A stretch of DNA of 64,000 bases, taken from assembly GCA_012838955.1 (NCBI GenBank), contig DUOH01000038.1, positions 1 through 64,000 on the forward strand. The letters run 5' to 3'. Shown in pieces: positions 6,892-14,786 of the stretch; the stretch's first letter is position 1; each line of letters begins with the position of its first letter. The notes below the pieces were generated by a model. It was not told the origin of the DNA. It worked only from the letters and a program-made list of their open reading frames with translations, and did not search any database. The DNA is from Bacillota bacterium. GTDB taxonomy: Bacteria > Bacillota > UBA4882 > UBA10575. A program made the position numbers and the translations under genes.

Positions 6892-7986
6892 TTAATTCCA
6901 GGTCATTTTGATCTCCTTCTTCTCAGCATACCGCTCCAAAGCCAGATCAACCAATTCCTCCAGGAGTCTTTGGTAAGGAATTCCCGTGGCCTCCCACATC
7001 TTTGTAAACATACTAATCTGTGTAAATCCAGGCATGGTGTTGATCTCATTCACCACCACCCGCTCATCCCGGTCCAAAACAAAAAAGTCCACTCTAGCCA
7101 AGCCGGAACAGTCAATGGCTTTAAAGGCTTTAACGGCCAGGTTCTGTATTTCTTTGGTCTTTTCCGGAGTCAACGGCGCCGGGATTAGCAGTTTCGATTG
7201 GTTCAATACATATTTGGCCTCATAATCATAAAAATCGGCGTTTGAGACTATCTCTCCAGGTAACGATGCCCTTGGTCGGTCATTCCCTAAAACGCTGCAC
7301 TCAACCTCTCTCCCCTCGAGAAAGGCCTCAATTACCAGCTTTCGATCATACATAGCCGCCTTTTCCATGGCAGACTGCAATTCTTCCCGGCAACGAGCTT
7401 TGCTAATTCCCACGCTCGAACCCATATTGGCCGGTTTGACAAAGCATGGGTACCCCAGCTTCTCTTCGATCTCCTCCGCAACCTCCTGCGGGGATTCCCG
7501 CCACTCCCGGCGCAAGTAAACCAGATAATCGCCGACGGGCAAACCCTCCATCTGAAATACCTTTTTCATCAGCGCCTTATCCATACCCACAGCTGAAGCT
7601 AGGATTCCTCCACCGATATACGGAATCCCGGCCAGCTCCAACAAGCCTTGAATACTGCCGTCTTCGCCCATTGGACCATGAAGTAAGGGAAAGACCAGAT
7701 CCACTTCTTCTTTTAATCTCCCTAACAAAACCCCGGCCGGGTTACTTACGAGCGAATAGTCGTTCTCCGCTCCCTGCTCACTTATGGGCTTTACCTGCAG
7801 ATCCTTTGACTGGACCAAGCTCTGCGGTGATAAACCCGGAATCCACTGTCCGTCACGAGTAATCCCGATCGGAAGCACTTCGAATTTTGAGCGGTCAAGC
7901 GCTGCCTTTACCGAGGCTGCTGATAAGACTGAAACCTCGTGTTCCCCCGATTGCCCACCATAGATTAGAGCCAGTTTTCTCCCCAT
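6892..7986 (-). CDS. ddl: D-alanine--D-alanine ligase
   Basis: 364 residues; ATP-grasp enzyme that makes the D-Ala-D-Ala dipeptide for peptidoglycan. Seen are the N-terminal GGQSGEHEVS, HGPMGEDGSIQGLLE, the ATP-grasp loop KPANMGSSVGI, DYEAKY (the Tyr-bearing motif of true D-Ala ligases rather than D-lactate ligases), ARVDFFV and the metal site VNEINTMPGF. TGAGGT lies 7 bases before the ATG. It is slightly long for the family because of an insertion after the first domain. It is a single gene unit ending in a strong terminator. Confidence 0.96.
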   Translation of the reverse strand: MGRKLALIYGGQSGEHEVSVLSAASVKAALDRSKFEVLPIGITRDGQWIPGLSPQSLVQSKDLQVKPISEQGAENDYSLVSNPAGVLLGRLKEEVDLVFPLLHGPMGEDGSIQGLLELAGIPYIGGGILASAVGMDKALMKKVFQMEGLPVGDYLVYLRREWRESPQEVAEEIEEKLGYPCFVKPANMGSSVGISKARCREELQSAMEKAAMYDRKLVIEAFLEGREVECSVLGNDRPRASLPGEIVSNADFYDYEAKYVLNQSKLLIPAPLTPEKTKEIQNLAVKAFKAIDCSGLARVDFFVLDRDERVVVNEINTMPGFTQISMFTKMWEATGIPYQRLLEELVDLALERYAEKKEIKMTWN

Positions 7987-8121: not shown

Positions 8122-9291
8122 CTATGGGAGAAACGGTATGGGGTTTACCGGTTTACCGTCTTTTCTCACTTCAAAATGCAAATGCGGACCAGTGCTCAGC
8201 CCGGTATTACCGGATAATGAGATGGTCTGCCCTTTGGTCACGATATCCCCTTCCTTCACCAGTAAACGGGAGTTATGACCGTAAGCGGTCGAGATGCCGT
8301 TTCCATGGTCAATAGCGATAAAATATCCGTACCCGCCGTTCCAACCACTAACCAATACCCTGCCGCTATCGGCCGCCGCCACCGCCGTCCCCGTCGGCAC
8401 AGCCAAATCGATGCCTGAATGAAACTTGTTCTTCTTCAAAATAGGGTGCATACGCCAACCAAAGTTGGAAGAGATCCGCGCCTTTACCGGCCAGATCATT
8501 TGGCCTGAACCCAATGCTTCTCCAGAGTGTTGCTTTCTTTTGATCTGTTCCTCGATCTCTTTGGAAGTCTTCTCCAGTTCATCCAAGGCGGTCTCGAGTT
8601 TTCTCCGGTCACTCTGGATGACTTGGAGTTCCCTTTTGGCCTTGGAGATTAAGACCACTTTTTGCTCCTGGTTCTTGGCTGCTTGCGTTTTTAACTTATA
8701 ATAATTGTTCCGCTGATTCTGAAGGCTTTTCTTTTTTTCTTCATACTCTTTTTGTTTGGCCGTAATCTCTTCCTTGGTCGCCTCCACCTCGCTGAGCAGA
8801 AATAAATCATTACGCAAGAAGTAAGATATTGCCTCAAATTTGCTGACAAAATCAGCGAAACTCTTTGCGGAGAGCAACCCTTCAAGATAACCGGAGAATC
8901 CATATTTATACGCTGCCACTAAACGCTGGTTCAACAGATCTTGTCTGTTATCGATCTGCTTCTCCAGGGTGCGACGTTCCCGTTCAATCGCTGCCATCTC
9001 CTTCTCCAATTTGGAGATGTTTCGTTCCGCTGATCTGAGTTTGGCGTTGAGATACTCCAGATCCCGCTCAATCCGATCCAACTCTCTTTGGGCTTTAGTT
9101 AATGAATTTAATACGGACCTTTCTTGCCGCTTCTTTTTGGTCAATTCTTCTTTGGTATCGGCAATTTGATTGTTTATAGCCTCCAGATCCTGTATACTCG
9201 CGACCACAGGAGGAGGGGCTTTCACCAACCCCGCGGAAAAAAAGGATAAAAAAAGGATCATAATCATTAATCCTGCGCGCGAAATCCTCAT
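8122..9291 (-). CDS. Coiled-coil M23 metallopeptidase (EnvC/PcsB type)
   Basis: 389 residues from the chosen start. A signal peptide or anchor (MRISRAGLMIMILFLSFF) is followed by a long coiled coil (about 30-260) and a C-terminal M23/LytM domain with zinc motifs HSGIDLAV and HLHFE and a second His in YGHNS. Proteins of this build are activators or hydrolases of the FtsEX divisome complex. In this window ftsEX lies at 46.7-48.3 kb beside ctpA but without such a gene, so this may be its partner; that is inference. AGGGTGAG lies about 5 bases before ATG 9291, while the upstream ATG at 9324 has no ribosome binding site. Confidence 0.9.
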   Translation of the reverse strand: MRISRAGLMIMILFLSFFSAGLVKAPPPVVASIQDLEAINNQIADTKEELTKKKRQERSVLNSLTKAQRELDRIERDLEYLNAKLRSAERNISKLEKEMAAIERERRTLEKQIDNRQDLLNQRLVAAYKYGFSGYLEGLLSAKSFADFVSKFEAISYFLRNDLFLLSEVEATKEEITAKQKEYEEKKKSLQNQRNNYYKLKTQAAKNQEQKVVLISKAKRELQVIQSDRRKLETALDELEKTSKEIEEQIKRKQHSGEALGSGQMIWPVKARISSNFGWRMHPILKKNKFHSGIDLAVPTGTAVAAADSGRVLVSGWNGGYGYFIAIDHGNGISTAYGHNSRLLVKEGDIVTKGQTISLSGNTGLSTGPHLHFEVRKDGKPVNPIPFLP

Positions 9292-9397
9292 TGCACTCAC
9301 CCTTTTTTGTAACGTTCCATCCATAGAGAATAATCGCTACCGTTATAGTATTTTTCGCTATCGCCTCCTTTGATCCTGCTATGATTAGACCCAATTT

Positions 9398-10825
9398 TCA
9401 CCCTCCCACTCCCGACTCGCCAAAATCTGATCCAGTAGCAGCCGACCAGTTCGCCGTTGACTTTGCTTCCATATATTTTACGCCGGTAAAATCAGCATAT
9501 AGACGATCCAGCGCCACCAGATCCTCCCGATTGACCTCCTGTAGATCCTTTTTCCCCAATGCCCTGGTTAATACGATCATCTCCTCCAGGCAACTGTGAA
9601 AGTAATTACTCAAGGTTTTGGCGCCTTGCTCCACATCATATTCTTTGACCTTTCTCCCATTATAAAACAGAATTTCTGTCGGCGGCTCCCAGGGGATGGT
9701 CTTGGTCACTTGTACATTGGACATGGTCAGAGCAGCGATGGTGCCGACAATTACCGCATCCGCCCCCAAAGCCAAGCATTTTAAGAAGTCGCCCGGTGAA
9801 ACCAGTCCGCCGCCGATGATCAAGGACACTTGACCGCGCACTCCCCTCTTCTGTAAATGGTTATCAGCCCGGCACAAACAGAGCAGAGTAGGCAGGCCCA
9901 TATCATCCAGTATAATACCGGGACCGCCATGAGTTCCGCCTTCCTTGCCGTCGATGACGATTACATCTGCGCCTCCGTCGATCAGCACATCCAATTCTTT
10001 CTCTAAGTGATGGGTGCCACCGATCTTTACTGCAATGGGAACACCCCCGGTCACCGTCTTCAGCCTTTCAATTAATCTCCGCCAGTCCGTAAAGTCTTCC
10101 ACCTCCGGCAATCTGGCTTCTACTAACACATCCAACCCGGGAATGGCTGAAATCCTTTGGGCGAATTCCGCAGTTACTTTATAGCCGGGGATCCGTTTCG
10201 GCGCCGCTCCCCATCCTCCCTGCCCCAAAGCAATCTCAATCATGTCCGCCTGTCTGAGAACTTCTTCGGATTTTGCCCAATAACCCCTGCTGTATTGGAG
10301 GATATACTTATCAGCCACCGCCCTGACTTCGGGCAAAAAAGGACCACTCCCTGTATTGACCGGCGTCCCAGTTAGCATAGAGTTTCTGGCCAGGGCAAGC
10401 TCTGTTTTTAAGCTGACCGCTCCACCATAAGCCCAACCGCCAACCATGATCGGCATTCTGATCGTCAACGGCTTTTGTGCTTTCGGGCCGAGCACTACTT
10501 CGGTCTTAATCGGTGTGGAGGCAGGTAAAGGCGGCCGGGTGAAACACACCGGGTTGAATTGAATACGATCCATGTAAAATAAACGACGGTTCGTTCCGAA
10601 AGGCCGCTCCAGCATTTTGCCGCTGATCGCGCGAAAACCGGCTTCCATAAAATCACGGATTCCGATCTTCTTGATTAATGTGAAATACTCCAGGAAGGGT
10701 CCGTTTCTAACCAATCGCCTAAGAGTACTCTCCATTCTTCGCTTACCTACCAAAACCAGGAGAAACAGCCCGCTTCTGAGGCCCAGGAGACTACCGGCTA
10801 GTAGCATTAGGGTTATTACTTCCAT
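9398..10825 (-). CDS. Glutamate synthase FMN-domain-like protein, paralogue 1
   Basis: 475 residues. An N-terminal hydrophobic anchor (about 4-26) is followed by a TIM barrel like the FMN/2-oxoglutarate domain of the glutamate synthase large subunit (GltB). Motifs include RPFGTNRR, PIMVGGWAYGG, NTGSGPFLPE, AVKIGGTHHLEKE, VIDGKEGGTHGGPG and GADAVIVGT. The [3Fe-4S] cysteine cluster of real glutamate synthase is absent; PWEPPTEIL stands in that region. No amidotransferase domain is present. It is the most canonical of three tandem paralogues. The substrate is unknown; a flavin-dependent oxidoreductase at the membrane is the safest statement. Confidence 0.85.
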   Translation of the reverse strand: MEVITLMLLAGSLLGLRSGLFLLVLVGKRRMESTLRRLVRNGPFLEYFTLIKKIGIRDFMEAGFRAISGKMLERPFGTNRRLFYMDRIQFNPVCFTRPPLPASTPIKTEVVLGPKAQKPLTIRMPIMVGGWAYGGAVSLKTELALARNSMLTGTPVNTGSGPFLPEVRAVADKYILQYSRGYWAKSEEVLRQADMIEIALGQGGWGAAPKRIPGYKVTAEFAQRISAIPGLDVLVEARLPEVEDFTDWRRLIERLKTVTGGVPIAVKIGGTHHLEKELDVLIDGGADVIVIDGKEGGTHGGPGIILDDMGLPTLLCLCRADNHLQKRGVRGQVSLIIGGGLVSPGDFLKCLALGADAVIVGTIAALTMSNVQVTKTIPWEPPTEILFYNGRKVKEYDVEQGAKTLSNYFHSCLEEMIVLTRALGKKDLQEVNREDLVALDRLYADFTGVKYMEAKSTANWSAATGSDFGESGVGG

Positions 10826-10829
10826 CCGG

Positions 10830-12227
10830 TTACACCACCTTACCCTGCGGAGGAAAGAAGGCTAGTTCCGCTCCGCTCAATTGTGCCATCTCCGGAGTAA
10901 GCGCAGCGATGTCTACCAAGGAGAGCTCCTGCAGAGAAGTTAACCCCAGATTCCGCAGGCCTAATTTGATCTCCGCATGGCAGCTTTTTAAGAAGTTGGC
11001 CACACTCTGCGCCCCCTGATCAACGGAGAACTTCTTCTGCAGCTTCCCAGTGTCATATAGCAACTCCGTAGGCGGCTCCCAGGGTAGAACTTTAGCGCTC
11101 TGGGTATGGGCCATGACCAGTAACAAAATGGTACCAAGCGCCACCGCATCCGCGCCCAAGACTAAAGCTTTCAGTACTTGTCCGGGATTATAAAAACCGC
11201 CGGAGACGATTAAGGAGATATACTCCGTCAATCCACGGGCTTGCAGAAATTTAGCGGTCCGGCAGAGCGCCGGCAGGGTCGGCAACCCGTAATCGTCGGC
11301 AGTAATTCCCGGACCGTAAGCGATTCCCGCTTCCGCCCCGGCGATACTGAGAAAATCAATATTCGCCTCAGTAATGACGCCCAACTCCTCTTCCAGTAAG
11401 TTGGTGGCGGCGATCTTCACTCCAATCGGCGCGCCATTGGTTACTCGACGCAGATAGGCCACTAAATCCCGGAGTTTTTCCCCATCATCCACTCCGGGGA
11501 GACCCGCCTCTTCCAACAAGTTCTGACCTGGCTGTAACTTCATGTAATCCCGGAACTCCGGGCTGAACTCCTCATATTTGTGGAGCACCGGAGCGGATCC
11601 ATATGCCCCATAGCCTAACTGGATTTCAACCGCATCCGCCTGCCTGAGAACTGCTTCCTCTTTCCCCCAATTGCCCCTGTGGTACTGGATAACCAGCCTT
11701 TTCGTGTGTTTTCTTTCTTCAGGCAGAAAGGCGCCGGAACCGGTATTAGTGGCTGTCTTCATCAGGTCCGCCGCTTTCGCCAAGGCGACTTTGGCCGGTA
11801 GGGAAAGTCCCCATCCGTAACTCATTCCAGCGATCATTAGCGGCAGATCAATTACCAGCGGCCGTTTGGCTCTGGGCCCAATCGTTACTTTAGTGTCGAT
11901 GTCCACGGATTCGACCACCGGTTTTCTGACGAAATAGACTGTGTTCAGAGTGAGTTGATCCCAATCCGACAGCCTTTTCCCGGCGCCAAAGGGACGCCTC
12001 AGGATCCCACCGCTGCTTCCTCTGAGATCTCCCTCGATTAAGTTCCGGACGCCCACTTTGGAGATGACATTATACATTTCAAAGATATTCTCGGGGTAGG
12101 GGTCTTTGATTAGAGTCCTGATCAACCTGTCAATAAAGAAGTTAAGCAAAGGCCGCCATAACAGGAGGGCCAGCAAAGAAAAGGCCAGTAAACTCCCGAG
12201 TAATGCCAGAAAAAAATGGACTATCAT
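10830..12227 (-). CDS. Glutamate synthase FMN-domain-like protein, paralogue 2
   Basis: 465 residues, same build: hydrophobic N-terminus (about 3-28), then the FMN barrel with RPFGAGKR, LMIAGMSYGWGLSLPAK, NTGSGAFLPEERK, GVKIAATNLLEEEL and GADAVALGT. The Gly-rich GGTH loop of paralogue 1 is changed to EAGIAYGPG, while PWEPPTELL is kept. The [3Fe-4S] cysteines are absent. The stop lies 4 bp before the paralogue 1 start, and the gene follows paralogue 3 by 16 bp, so all three are one operon. A G-rich stretch (CCGGGGGG) 8 bases before the ATG is the only ribosome binding site candidate. Confidence 0.85.
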   Translation of the reverse strand: MIVHFFLALLGSLLAFSLLALLLWRPLLNFFIDRLIRTLIKDPYPENIFEMYNVISKVGVRNLIEGDLRGSSGGILRRPFGAGKRLSDWDQLTLNTVYFVRKPVVESVDIDTKVTIGPRAKRPLVIDLPLMIAGMSYGWGLSLPAKVALAKAADLMKTATNTGSGAFLPEERKHTKRLVIQYHRGNWGKEEAVLRQADAVEIQLGYGAYGSAPVLHKYEEFSPEFRDYMKLQPGQNLLEEAGLPGVDDGEKLRDLVAYLRRVTNGAPIGVKIAATNLLEEELGVITEANIDFLSIAGAEAGIAYGPGITADDYGLPTLPALCRTAKFLQARGLTEYISLIVSGGFYNPGQVLKALVLGADAVALGTILLLVMAHTQSAKVLPWEPPTELLYDTGKLQKKFSVDQGAQSVANFLKSCHAEIKLGLRNLGLTSLQELSLVDIAALTPEMAQLSGAELAFFPPQGKVV

Positions 12228-12243
12228 TATATATACCCCCCGG

Positions 12244-13614
12244 TCATCTCTCTTTCTGCTTCGTGGTGGAACAGGTTACAGGGCGCCGACCAGACGGGTC
12301 AGGTGCTCCACACCAGGAAATTCCTAGGCAGGAAGCGATCTCTTTGCTACCGGTAGAAAGGTCTTCCTTGCCAACCTCCCGCAAGTGCGCCCGGCCTAAA
12401 CATAACGCGATTTCCTGCATCTCCCTGCTGGCCTCTTGCAGATAGTCCCGCACCCTTTCCGCTGCGAACAGTATGTCTAGCCTCGGCCTGAATTGACCCT
12501 TGATCCATCGCGAAGAAAAGTTGGCAAACCCCCTCCCGCCCTTACCCGCACTGAGCGCTTTCAAGGCGGCGGTACCGATGAAAACCGCATCCGCGCCTAA
12601 AGCCAACGCTTTTAGAAAATCCGCTGGTGTCCGCAGACCACCCCCGGCCAACAAGGAAATCCTGTCGGCCAGCCCCTGTCGGCGAAGATATTGTACGGCC
12701 CGATTAACCGCATGAAGGGTGGGAATTCCCATTTGTGCGGCTGGCGACGCCGGATCACCCTCTCCGGCCTCCATTCCGTAGATGGCAATATAATCCGGTT
12801 GTGCGCCGGTGATGATCTCCAACTCCTCTTCAAGACATTGGCTGGCGCCGATCTTTACCCCCACCGGTACCCCGCCGCTCTTCCGGCGCAAGCCACTGAT
12901 TAAGCCTGCCAAGTCAGCCCGGTCCTTAATACTCAATAATTTGACGGGAATAACCGCCGGTTCTCCGGGCTCAGCCCCTAATAGAGCACGGAGCTTCTCG
13001 TTTCTGGCCAGTCGCTGCAGGGGAATATTCACCGTCATTGACCCACAGGGACCATGTCCCAGTTGAATTTCGACTGCATCAGCCGCGCTCAAAGCCGCCA
13101 AGTCTTTATCCCAGCGTCCCCTGGCGAACTGGACGATTAGCTTCTCCGCTGCACTCCGTTCCGTTACGAGCAAGGGACCGTTTCCCGTATTGGCGGCTGT
13201 CCCGGCCATAGTAGCTCCCAGGGCCAAAGCCTGTTTTGCTTCTGCGTGTAAGGCAGTCTGATAACCCATACCGCCGAGGATGACCGGGATCTGTAATTTC
13301 AAAGGTTTCTTGGCGCACGGTCCAATCGTCACCTCAGTACCGATTTTTCGGGCAAGTAGTTCCGGCGGACGATGGAGATAGACCGGGTTAAAAAAAAGTT
13401 GGTCCCATAAAGAGAAGGCGAGTTTTCTCTCCCGGACCTGACTTTCCTTTCTCACCCAAGATTTTGCAGCATGATCCGTATAGCATAGGGCTCGCCTACG
13501 CCGTTCTATAGAATCTCCTGATTTAAACGGGCCCAGCCGCAGCGCACCCGTGGCTCCCAGTGCTACCCCACTAATCCCTATGCCCAGTAAAACTAGGCAG
13601 AACCGGAAATCCAA
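12244..13614 (-). CDS. Glutamate synthase FMN-domain-like protein, paralogue 3 (divergent)
   Basis: 456 residues from a TTG start with AGGAGG 8 bases upstream; an upstream ATG at 13647 has no ribosome binding site. A membrane anchor (LVLLGIGISGVALGATGAL) is followed by the same barrel: PVILGGMGYQTALHAEA, NTGNGPLLVTERS, GVKIGASQCLEEEL, GADAVFIGT. It is the most diverged copy: the flavin-loop region reads YGMEAGEGDP and the PWEPPTE motif of the other two is missing. It also has a Cys-containing C-terminal tail. It is the first gene of the operon. The trio suggests a hetero-oligomer with unequal subunits, but this is inference. Confidence 0.8.
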   Translation of the reverse strand: MDFRFCLVLLGIGISGVALGATGALRLGPFKSGDSIERRRRALCYTDHAAKSWVRKESQVRERKLAFSLWDQLFFNPVYLHRPPELLARKIGTEVTIGPCAKKPLKLQIPVILGGMGYQTALHAEAKQALALGATMAGTAANTGNGPLLVTERSAAEKLIVQFARGRWDKDLAALSAADAVEIQLGHGPCGSMTVNIPLQRLARNEKLRALLGAEPGEPAVIPVKLLSIKDRADLAGLISGLRRKSGGVPVGVKIGASQCLEEELEIITGAQPDYIAIYGMEAGEGDPASPAAQMGIPTLHAVNRAVQYLRRQGLADRISLLAGGGLRTPADFLKALALGADAVFIGTAALKALSAGKGGRGFANFSSRWIKGQFRPRLDILFAAERVRDYLQEASREMQEIALCLGRAHLREVGKEDLSTGSKEIASCLGISWCGAPDPSGRRPVTCSTTKQKER

Positions 13615-13838
13615 TATTCTTCCCTCCTCACTCCCTATTTTAACCATTTTTCGCCAATCTAACCATCAACCCAAATTTATTCCACAATTGGCATGTACCT
13701 TTAATTCCCACCAGGAAACACCTGCTCAGGTTAGAATTATTCATTCAACAACAAAACTGTAAGTAAAGGGAGGCTATGCGCGGAAGACCAAAAACAAGCA
13801 ATTTATGCTCTTTAAAAAATACAGAAAGGGAGTGTAGA

Positions 13839-14786
13839 ATGACTGTCAAAAAATCAAAGATCTTTCTTAGCTTAATGATCACCGGTGGGTTGCTGGCATC
13901 CTTCTCTACCTCAATTAGCGCCAGAAGCTATCAGGTGAAACCGGGAGATTCCCTATATAAGATCTCCAAGAGTTTTGGTACGAGCGTCAGTTCTATCCAA
14001 AGTGTAAACCAGTTATGGTCCTCCAACATTTATCCGGGTCAGATTTTAATCATCCCTGAAACCGGGCAATCCGGCTCTGCCAAGTACACGGTAAAGTCCG
14101 GTGATACTCTGTATTTAATCGCCCAGCGCCACAATGTAACCGTGAATCAGTTGCGTTCGGCCAATGGGATCTGGAATGATTATCTATGGGTAGGACAAAC
14201 CCTCTATATCCCCAAATCAACTTCTGGTTCATCCGGAAGTGGACAAGAGTATTATACGGTGCGCTCCGGTGACAGCCTGTATCTGATCGCCAACCAGTAC
14301 GGAACCAGTATCAACGCGATTAAGTCCGCAAACAACTTGTATAACAACACTATTTATCCCGGACAAAAACTACGTATTCCACAAACGCAAAATGTACCGC
14401 CAGCAAGCTCCTCCTTCTCCGCTTCAGACATCGAGCTCTTAGCCAGACTGGTACGGGCCGAGGCGGAGGGAGAACCCTATGAAGGAATGGTCGCCGTAGC
14501 CGCCACCGTGCTCAACCGGGTGGCAGACCCGCGTTATCCCAACAGCATCCCTGAGGTCATCTATCAAGTGGTCAATGGTGTGCCCCAATTCAGTCCGGTC
14601 ATCGACGGTAGAATCAACCTTCCGGCTACCGCCACTTCACGAAAGGCCGCCCAGGATGCGCTCAACGGCTGGGATCCCTCCCGTGGAGCAACCGGCTTTT
14701 ACAATCCGGCAAAAACCAGTAATTGGTGGGTAAAATCCCAGCCATCCACTACCAGAATCGGTGACCACGTCTTTTTTAAATACTAA
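13839..14786 (+). CDS. LysM-containing cell wall hydrolase, SleB/CwlJ type
   Basis: 315 residues. A signal peptide (about 1-30) is followed by three LysM repeats (each starting near YxVKxGDxLYxI, about 32-75, 82-126 and 138-182) and a C-terminal Hydrolase_2 domain with LLARLVRAEAEGEPYEG, whose Glu is the likely catalytic residue, and ATVLNRV. The domain is that of spore cortex-lytic SleB/CwlJ, so the protein probably cleaves peptidoglycan at the surface or in spores. ATG 13839 is chosen because AAAGGGAG sits just upstream; an in-frame ATG at 13776 would add 21 residues ahead of the signal peptide. Confidence 0.9.
   Translation: MTVKKSKIFLSLMITGGLLASFSTSISARSYQVKPGDSLYKISKSFGTSVSSIQSVNQLWSSNIYPGQILIIPETGQSGSAKYTVKSGDTLYLIAQRHNVTVNQLRSANGIWNDYLWVGQTLYIPKSTSGSSGSGQEYYTVRSGDSLYLIANQYGTSINAIKSANNLYNNTIYPGQKLRIPQTQNVPPASSSFSASDIELLARLVRAEAEGEPYEGMVAVAATVLNRVADPRYPNSIPEVIYQVVNGVPQFSPVIDGRINLPATATSRKAAQDALNGWDPSRGATGFYNPAKTSNWWVKSQPSTTRIGDHVFFKY

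Follow-up and report, generated by a model that had tools for sequence, protein, structure and literature searches.

What do three adjacent genes for glutamate-synthase-like FMN proteins contribute to a bacterium of the Bacillota, and do their products form one enzyme? The genes lie in the window (the whole 64 000-nucleotide stretch of DNA that was analysed) in the order P0003, P0002, P0001, with spacers of 16 bp (P0003/P0002) and 4 bp (P0002/P0001). All three proteins match the Glu_synthase domain PF01645 over ∼ 310–325 residues (E 4e-47 to 8e-55), with scores of 162–187 bits against a curated cut-off of 20.4. The highest hydropathy of a 19-residue N-terminal segment is 2.1, 2.6 and 2.0 in the three proteins. 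The ORFs, the domain matches and the hydropathy thus agree with an earlier sequence-only reading of the locus as a tight string of three tandem, diverged and N-terminally anchored paralogues of the GltB FMN-barrel type. The same reading held that the amidotransferase domain was missing, and indeed Pfam found no match to it in P0001, P0002 or P0003. The GXGXG domain (PF01493) matched neither these proteins nor any other in the whole genome. Translation of P0003 most likely begins where the earlier reading placed it, at the TTG in position 13614, which follows an AGGAGG by 8 bases; an alternative in-frame ATG lies upstream at 13647.

Table 1. Positions of the three genes and of neighbouring features in the window.
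Feature	Position	Strand	Description	Evidence
P0003	12244–13614	−	456 aa; clade C; N-terminal anchor; divergent within clade C (no PWEPPT, no GGTHG loop)	ORF, Pfam, tree, alignment, model
P0002	10830–12227	−	465 aa; clade B; N-terminal anchor; PWEPPTE; loop EAGIAYGPG	
P0001	9398–10825	−	475 aa; clade A; N-terminal anchor; PWEPPTE; loop EGGTHGGPG	
Shine–Dalgarno AGGAGG	13623–13628	−	Serves the P0003 TTG start	Sequence
Two GGTTA(A/G)A copies	13636–13664	−	Upstream of P0003; kept at clade-C genes of relatives	
Conserved block TTTCCTGGTGGGAATTAAAGG (read on the minus strand)	13698–13718	.	Between the divergent LysM/hydrolase gene and P0003	
LysM + Cell Wall Hydrolase_2 (PF07486) protein	13776–14786	+	Divergent; adjoins clade C in 14 loci	
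M23 peptidase with PcsB-like coiled coil	8122–9324	−	Follows clade C in relatives, the B–A pair in the window	
D-Ala-D-Ala ligase (Ddl)	6892–7986	−	Conserved further neighbour	

Alignment with E. coli GltB (from the K-12 record) placed N/T/P of P0001, H/V/P of P0002 and A/G/A of P0003 in the columns of the [3Fe-4S] cysteines, so these ligands are missing from all three proteins, as had been claimed. The cysteines are generally missing from a large family and their loss is no peculiarity of this operon; the window genome carries five genes of the cysteine-less family, the three described here and two further copies (C62 and C14). In place of the cysteine motif P0001 and P0002 have E(F)PPT; P0003 falls inside the family and has lost the motif. 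The flavin loops (GKEGGTHGGPG in P0001, GAEAGIAYGPG in P0002 and GMEAGEGDP in P0003) differ in the way the sequence-only reading gave them, and PWEPPTE is confined to P0001 and P0002. The near-invariant columns of the family number 45, of which P0001 keeps 44, P0002 43 and P0003 39. P0003 retains NTG, K265, GG and LGAD among them; the columns it has lost belong to the linker that follows the anchor, or correspond to Q372/P381 in P0001 numbering. P0003 and P0002 were modelled with AlphaFold (mean pLDDT 84.1 and 90.8), and each model begins with a long helix, spanning residues 14–38 and 2–41 respectively. With both models Foldseek ranked glutamate synthase chains first and FMN hydroxyacid oxidases and flavocytochrome b2 next, and a profile search of solved structures agreed on glutamate synthase. 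Given the conserved core residues and the predicted fold of P0002 and P0003, P0001, P0002 and P0003 are all likely to bind FMN at the barrel. The columns kept by P0003 and its confidently predicted barrel argue against a dead protein unable to bind the cofactor. According to the positive-inside rule, basic residues mark the cytoplasmic side of a membrane helix; here they come after the N-terminal helix, which would place the barrel on the cytoplasmic side.

A tree of 76 rows, comprising cysteine-less proteins and cysteine-bearing GltB, united the cysteine-less proteins in one branch (100/100) apart from cysteine-bearing GltB. Within it P0001, P0002 and P0003 belong to three old clades, A, B and C respectively. 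Clade C is found in nearly all genomes of the bacterial family to which the window genome belongs, at a conserved locus consisting of a divergent LysM/Hydrolase_2 gene, the clade-C gene, the M23 peptidase gene and ddl; in 14 relatives the P0003-type gene stands alone there. P0002 clusters with G024, a genome belonging to a different family of the class (100/94), and P0001 lies inside clade A of that same family (100/96), several genera of which have B and A in tandem. P0003 is the native single copy at the conserved locus. P0002–P0001 is most likely an older pair that was inserted here by horizontal transfer, since its two members have this placement in the tree and since in relatives the M23 gene directly follows clade C, where the window has the B–A pair. 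We therefore reject a three-gene unit in favour of a composite of a native clade-C gene and a B–A pair. Nor did the idea of the three genes as a conserved set survive the wider comparison: clade C occurs alone in the 14 relatives, P0001-type and P0002-type genes also occur singly, and among the genomes examined the three-gene set is present in the window genome only.

The earlier reading had taken the motif differences as a sign of divided roles. The divergence itself is real (P0003 sits on a branch of length 1.08), but the loss of the loop and of PWEPPTE from P0003 is late, as most of its orthologues retain both GGTHG and PWEPPT. A second long-branch group (G003, G008 and G010, all of one genus) has likewise changed both motifs. 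Separate and younger tandem duplications are found in Bacillus (63–83% identity within the pair) and in Peptococcaceae (67–74%), compared with ∼ 40% identity in the old B–A pair. Two genomes, G002 and G013, carry a cysteine-bearing GltB in addition to cysteine-less copies. In the intergenic region (13636–13718) a palindrome-like TTCC..GGGAA and the GGTTA(A/G)A copies are kept between the LysM/hydrolase and clade-C genes of relatives. A scan with a loose B. subtilis consensus found no sporulation-sigma-like promoter above background. The window hydrolase is of the SleB catalytic-domain type only, and cortex is its putative substrate.

The strongest signal was absent from the sequence-only reading: the tie of the family to endospore formers and to germination genes. 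Occurrence was examined in 201 genomes of one class, the Bacilli, with family matches accepted at E up to 1e-55 and SpoVAD as a proxy for sporulation. The cysteine-less family was present in 55 of the 147 SpoVAD-positive genomes vs none of the 54 SpoVAD-negative genomes (Fisher p = 1.5e-9, a statistic that ignores kinship among genomes that are not independent; p = 1.3e-8 once the seed genomes are left out). The remaining 92 of the 147 SpoVAD-positive genomes lack the family, which is therefore no core spore gene. Among the nearer relatives of the window genome, G023 (89% complete) has a B–A pair and no SpoVAD match and is a possible exception; G047 (78% complete) has a family copy and a DpaA-like gene, also with no SpoVAD match. 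Named genomes, scanned at the 80 loci nearest to P0001, were mostly from genera of endospore formers (such as Bacillus, Paenibacillus, Brevibacillus, Moorella, Pelotomaculum and Desulfosporosinus), together with MAGs.

GerA genes and family copies were then located in 29 whole genomes. In at least 10 of them a family copy and a listed GerA gene are no more than 5 kb apart, where ∼ 0.9 would be expected (∼ 11 times chance). At the loci nearest to P0001 a ger gene lies within three genes of 21 of 88 copies, and the label 'ger neighbour' requires at least seven changes on the tree. Pfam confirmed GerA, GerB and GerC neighbours. One clade-A relative of P0001 is located directly upstream of a complete GerA–GerC–GerB set (L078); another (L074) has SpoVAD and SpoVAEB as neighbours. 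In ∼ 11 of 15 relatives spoVAD is no more than a few kb away from the clade-E copy, which has SpoVAC and SpoVAD nearby; genes for CotJC-like Mn catalases adjoin B–A genes, and cortex-hydrolase-like genes adjoin some family copies. Counted per copy, only a minority are close to spore genes.

Several further features of these loci were observed. The spoVAC–spoVAD–spoVAEb set of the window genome (L191:5258–7385) lacks the clade-E gene that most relatives have just downstream; the clade-E copy of this genome is found on a different contig, and its sister in the tree comes from a different family of the class. Four relatives have a gene for a thiamine-diphosphate enzyme that separates spoVAD from the clade-E gene (L068:7640–9298). 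A protein of ∼ 82–118 aa is encoded directly upstream of family members, on the same strand, at 10 loci (L169:7656–7937 and nine similar ones) from Paenibacillus, Pelotomaculum, Shimazuella, Hazenella and others and is a candidate partner; the one example searched gave no Pfam match. In Bacilli, DUF2071 (YqjF-like) genes adjoin family members (L158:6968–7717 and seven similar loci).

The restriction to SpoVAD-positive genomes and the proximity to germination and spore genes together point to a role in spores, and we consider the link of the cysteine-less family to spores likely. The locus had previously been read as encoding an obligate hetero-oligomeric membrane flavin oxidoreductase of three proteins with divided roles. 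The tight gene string, the tandem B–A pairs of several genera, the separate tandem pairs of Bacillus and Peptococcaceae and the strong divergence of P0003 at two motifs would fit such a complex. However, 14 relatives have clade C as the only such gene at the locus, A and B can be found singly as well, most of the 29 genomes examined have a single copy at E below 1e-80, and the triple is peculiar to the window genome, so that an obligate complex of three appears unlikely. We also think it rather unlikely that these are general metabolic or stress flavoproteins that lie near germination genes as a result of common lineage and the layout of the genomes. B. subtilis YerD is a stand-alone GltB-like protein, likened to the window family by this description and not by sequence. 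It is given as a SigB-controlled osmotic-resistance protein with no spore role stated (PMC7522486), and in two thirds of the genomes examined every family copy is more than 5 kb away from the nearest listed GerA gene. A general function is nevertheless hard to square with a family found in 0/54 SpoVAD-negative genomes, with GerA proximity that is ∼ 11 times chance and arose repeatedly, and with different spore modules adjoining separate clades.

Two more specific enzymatic roles were considered. Stand-alone glutamate synthases that replace GltB in a genome without GXGXG proteins would be in keeping with the absence of PF01493 and with a fold and core residues of the glutamate-synthase type. 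Yet the proteins have no Fe-S ligands, amidotransferase domain or GXGXG partner, the genome encodes a strong ELFV dehydrogenase (glutamate-dehydrogenase type), and G002 and G013 have kept their cysteine-bearing GltB as well; with PF01493 absent and the ELFV dehydrogenase present, such a replacement is very unlikely. An alternative dipicolinate synthase, oxidizing dihydrodipicolinate beside the SpoVA channel, is suggested by the SpoVA neighbours and by an aminotransferase gene near B–A pairs (c15), which we take to encode LL-diaminopimelate aminotransferase. This proposal is barely credible, because the window genome has a DpaA-like gene (E 8e-84, though under the curated cut-off), as do most family-bearing relatives.

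We propose instead that the family probably consists of FMN oxidoreductases of the spore membrane that are linked to sporulation or germination, and we lean towards the fuller reading of cysteine-less, tethered FMN oxidoreductases that serve endospore formers in spore formation or germination. Many members would be held by one N-terminal helix in the forespore or spore membrane, with an FMN-binding barrel facing the cytoplasm, which in the forespore or spore is the core. The substrate may be a small keto-, imino-, hydroxy- or amino acid that is reduced or oxidized, with a soluble electron donor taking the place of the lost Fe-S cluster, and the redox step would be part of spore formation or germination, whichever the timing. 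In the window, the native P0003 lay by cell-wall-lytic genes and the P0002–P0001 pair from a related lineage would have landed directly downstream; P0001, P0002 and P0003 may act jointly. A more tentative suggestion, on the doubtful side, is that these are inner-membrane-tethered enzymes working with germinant receptors or the SpoVA channel, an unrecognised flavin redox component of the germination apparatus.

Among known systems, glutamate synthase (GltB/Fd-GltS; PF01645; PDB 1ofd, 1ea0 and 7mfm) is the best structural match and shares the FMN-barrel domain and the NTG, Lys, GG and LGA(D/E) core positions. Unlike GltB, the window proteins lack the amidotransferase domain, GXGXG and the [3Fe-4S] cysteines and have a membrane helix and the E(F)PPT motif. 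The stand-alone, cysteine-bearing GltB of archaeal type (L100 in G002) is likewise a single PF01645 domain of similar length, but it has retained the cysteine cluster and branches separately in the tree with full support. MgsABC (N-methylglutamate synthase) and GlxBCD are glutamate-synthase-like systems split over several proteins, with the FMN subunit on its own; they depend on amidotransferase-like and GXGXG partners, whereas the window genome has no PF01493. Family members are located within or beside GerA-type operons in Bacillus, Ammoniphilus, Brevibacillus, Paenibacillus and Peptococcaceae, but the window genes themselves are not in one. In the open-access papers searched we found neither a description of the family as part of a germinant receptor nor a connection between the cysteine-less branch and spores or germination.

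The domain is already known, and automatic annotation would call these genes 'FMN-binding glutamate synthase family protein', a database name that can mislead where the cysteines are missing. How nutrient sensing by Ger receptors is converted into the release of ions and dipicolinate is incompletely understood. Flavoproteins that are confined to spore formers and recur in ger operons would suggest that sporulation or germination includes a redox or metabolic step, and the family offers a gene that can be deleted in tractable laboratory strains.
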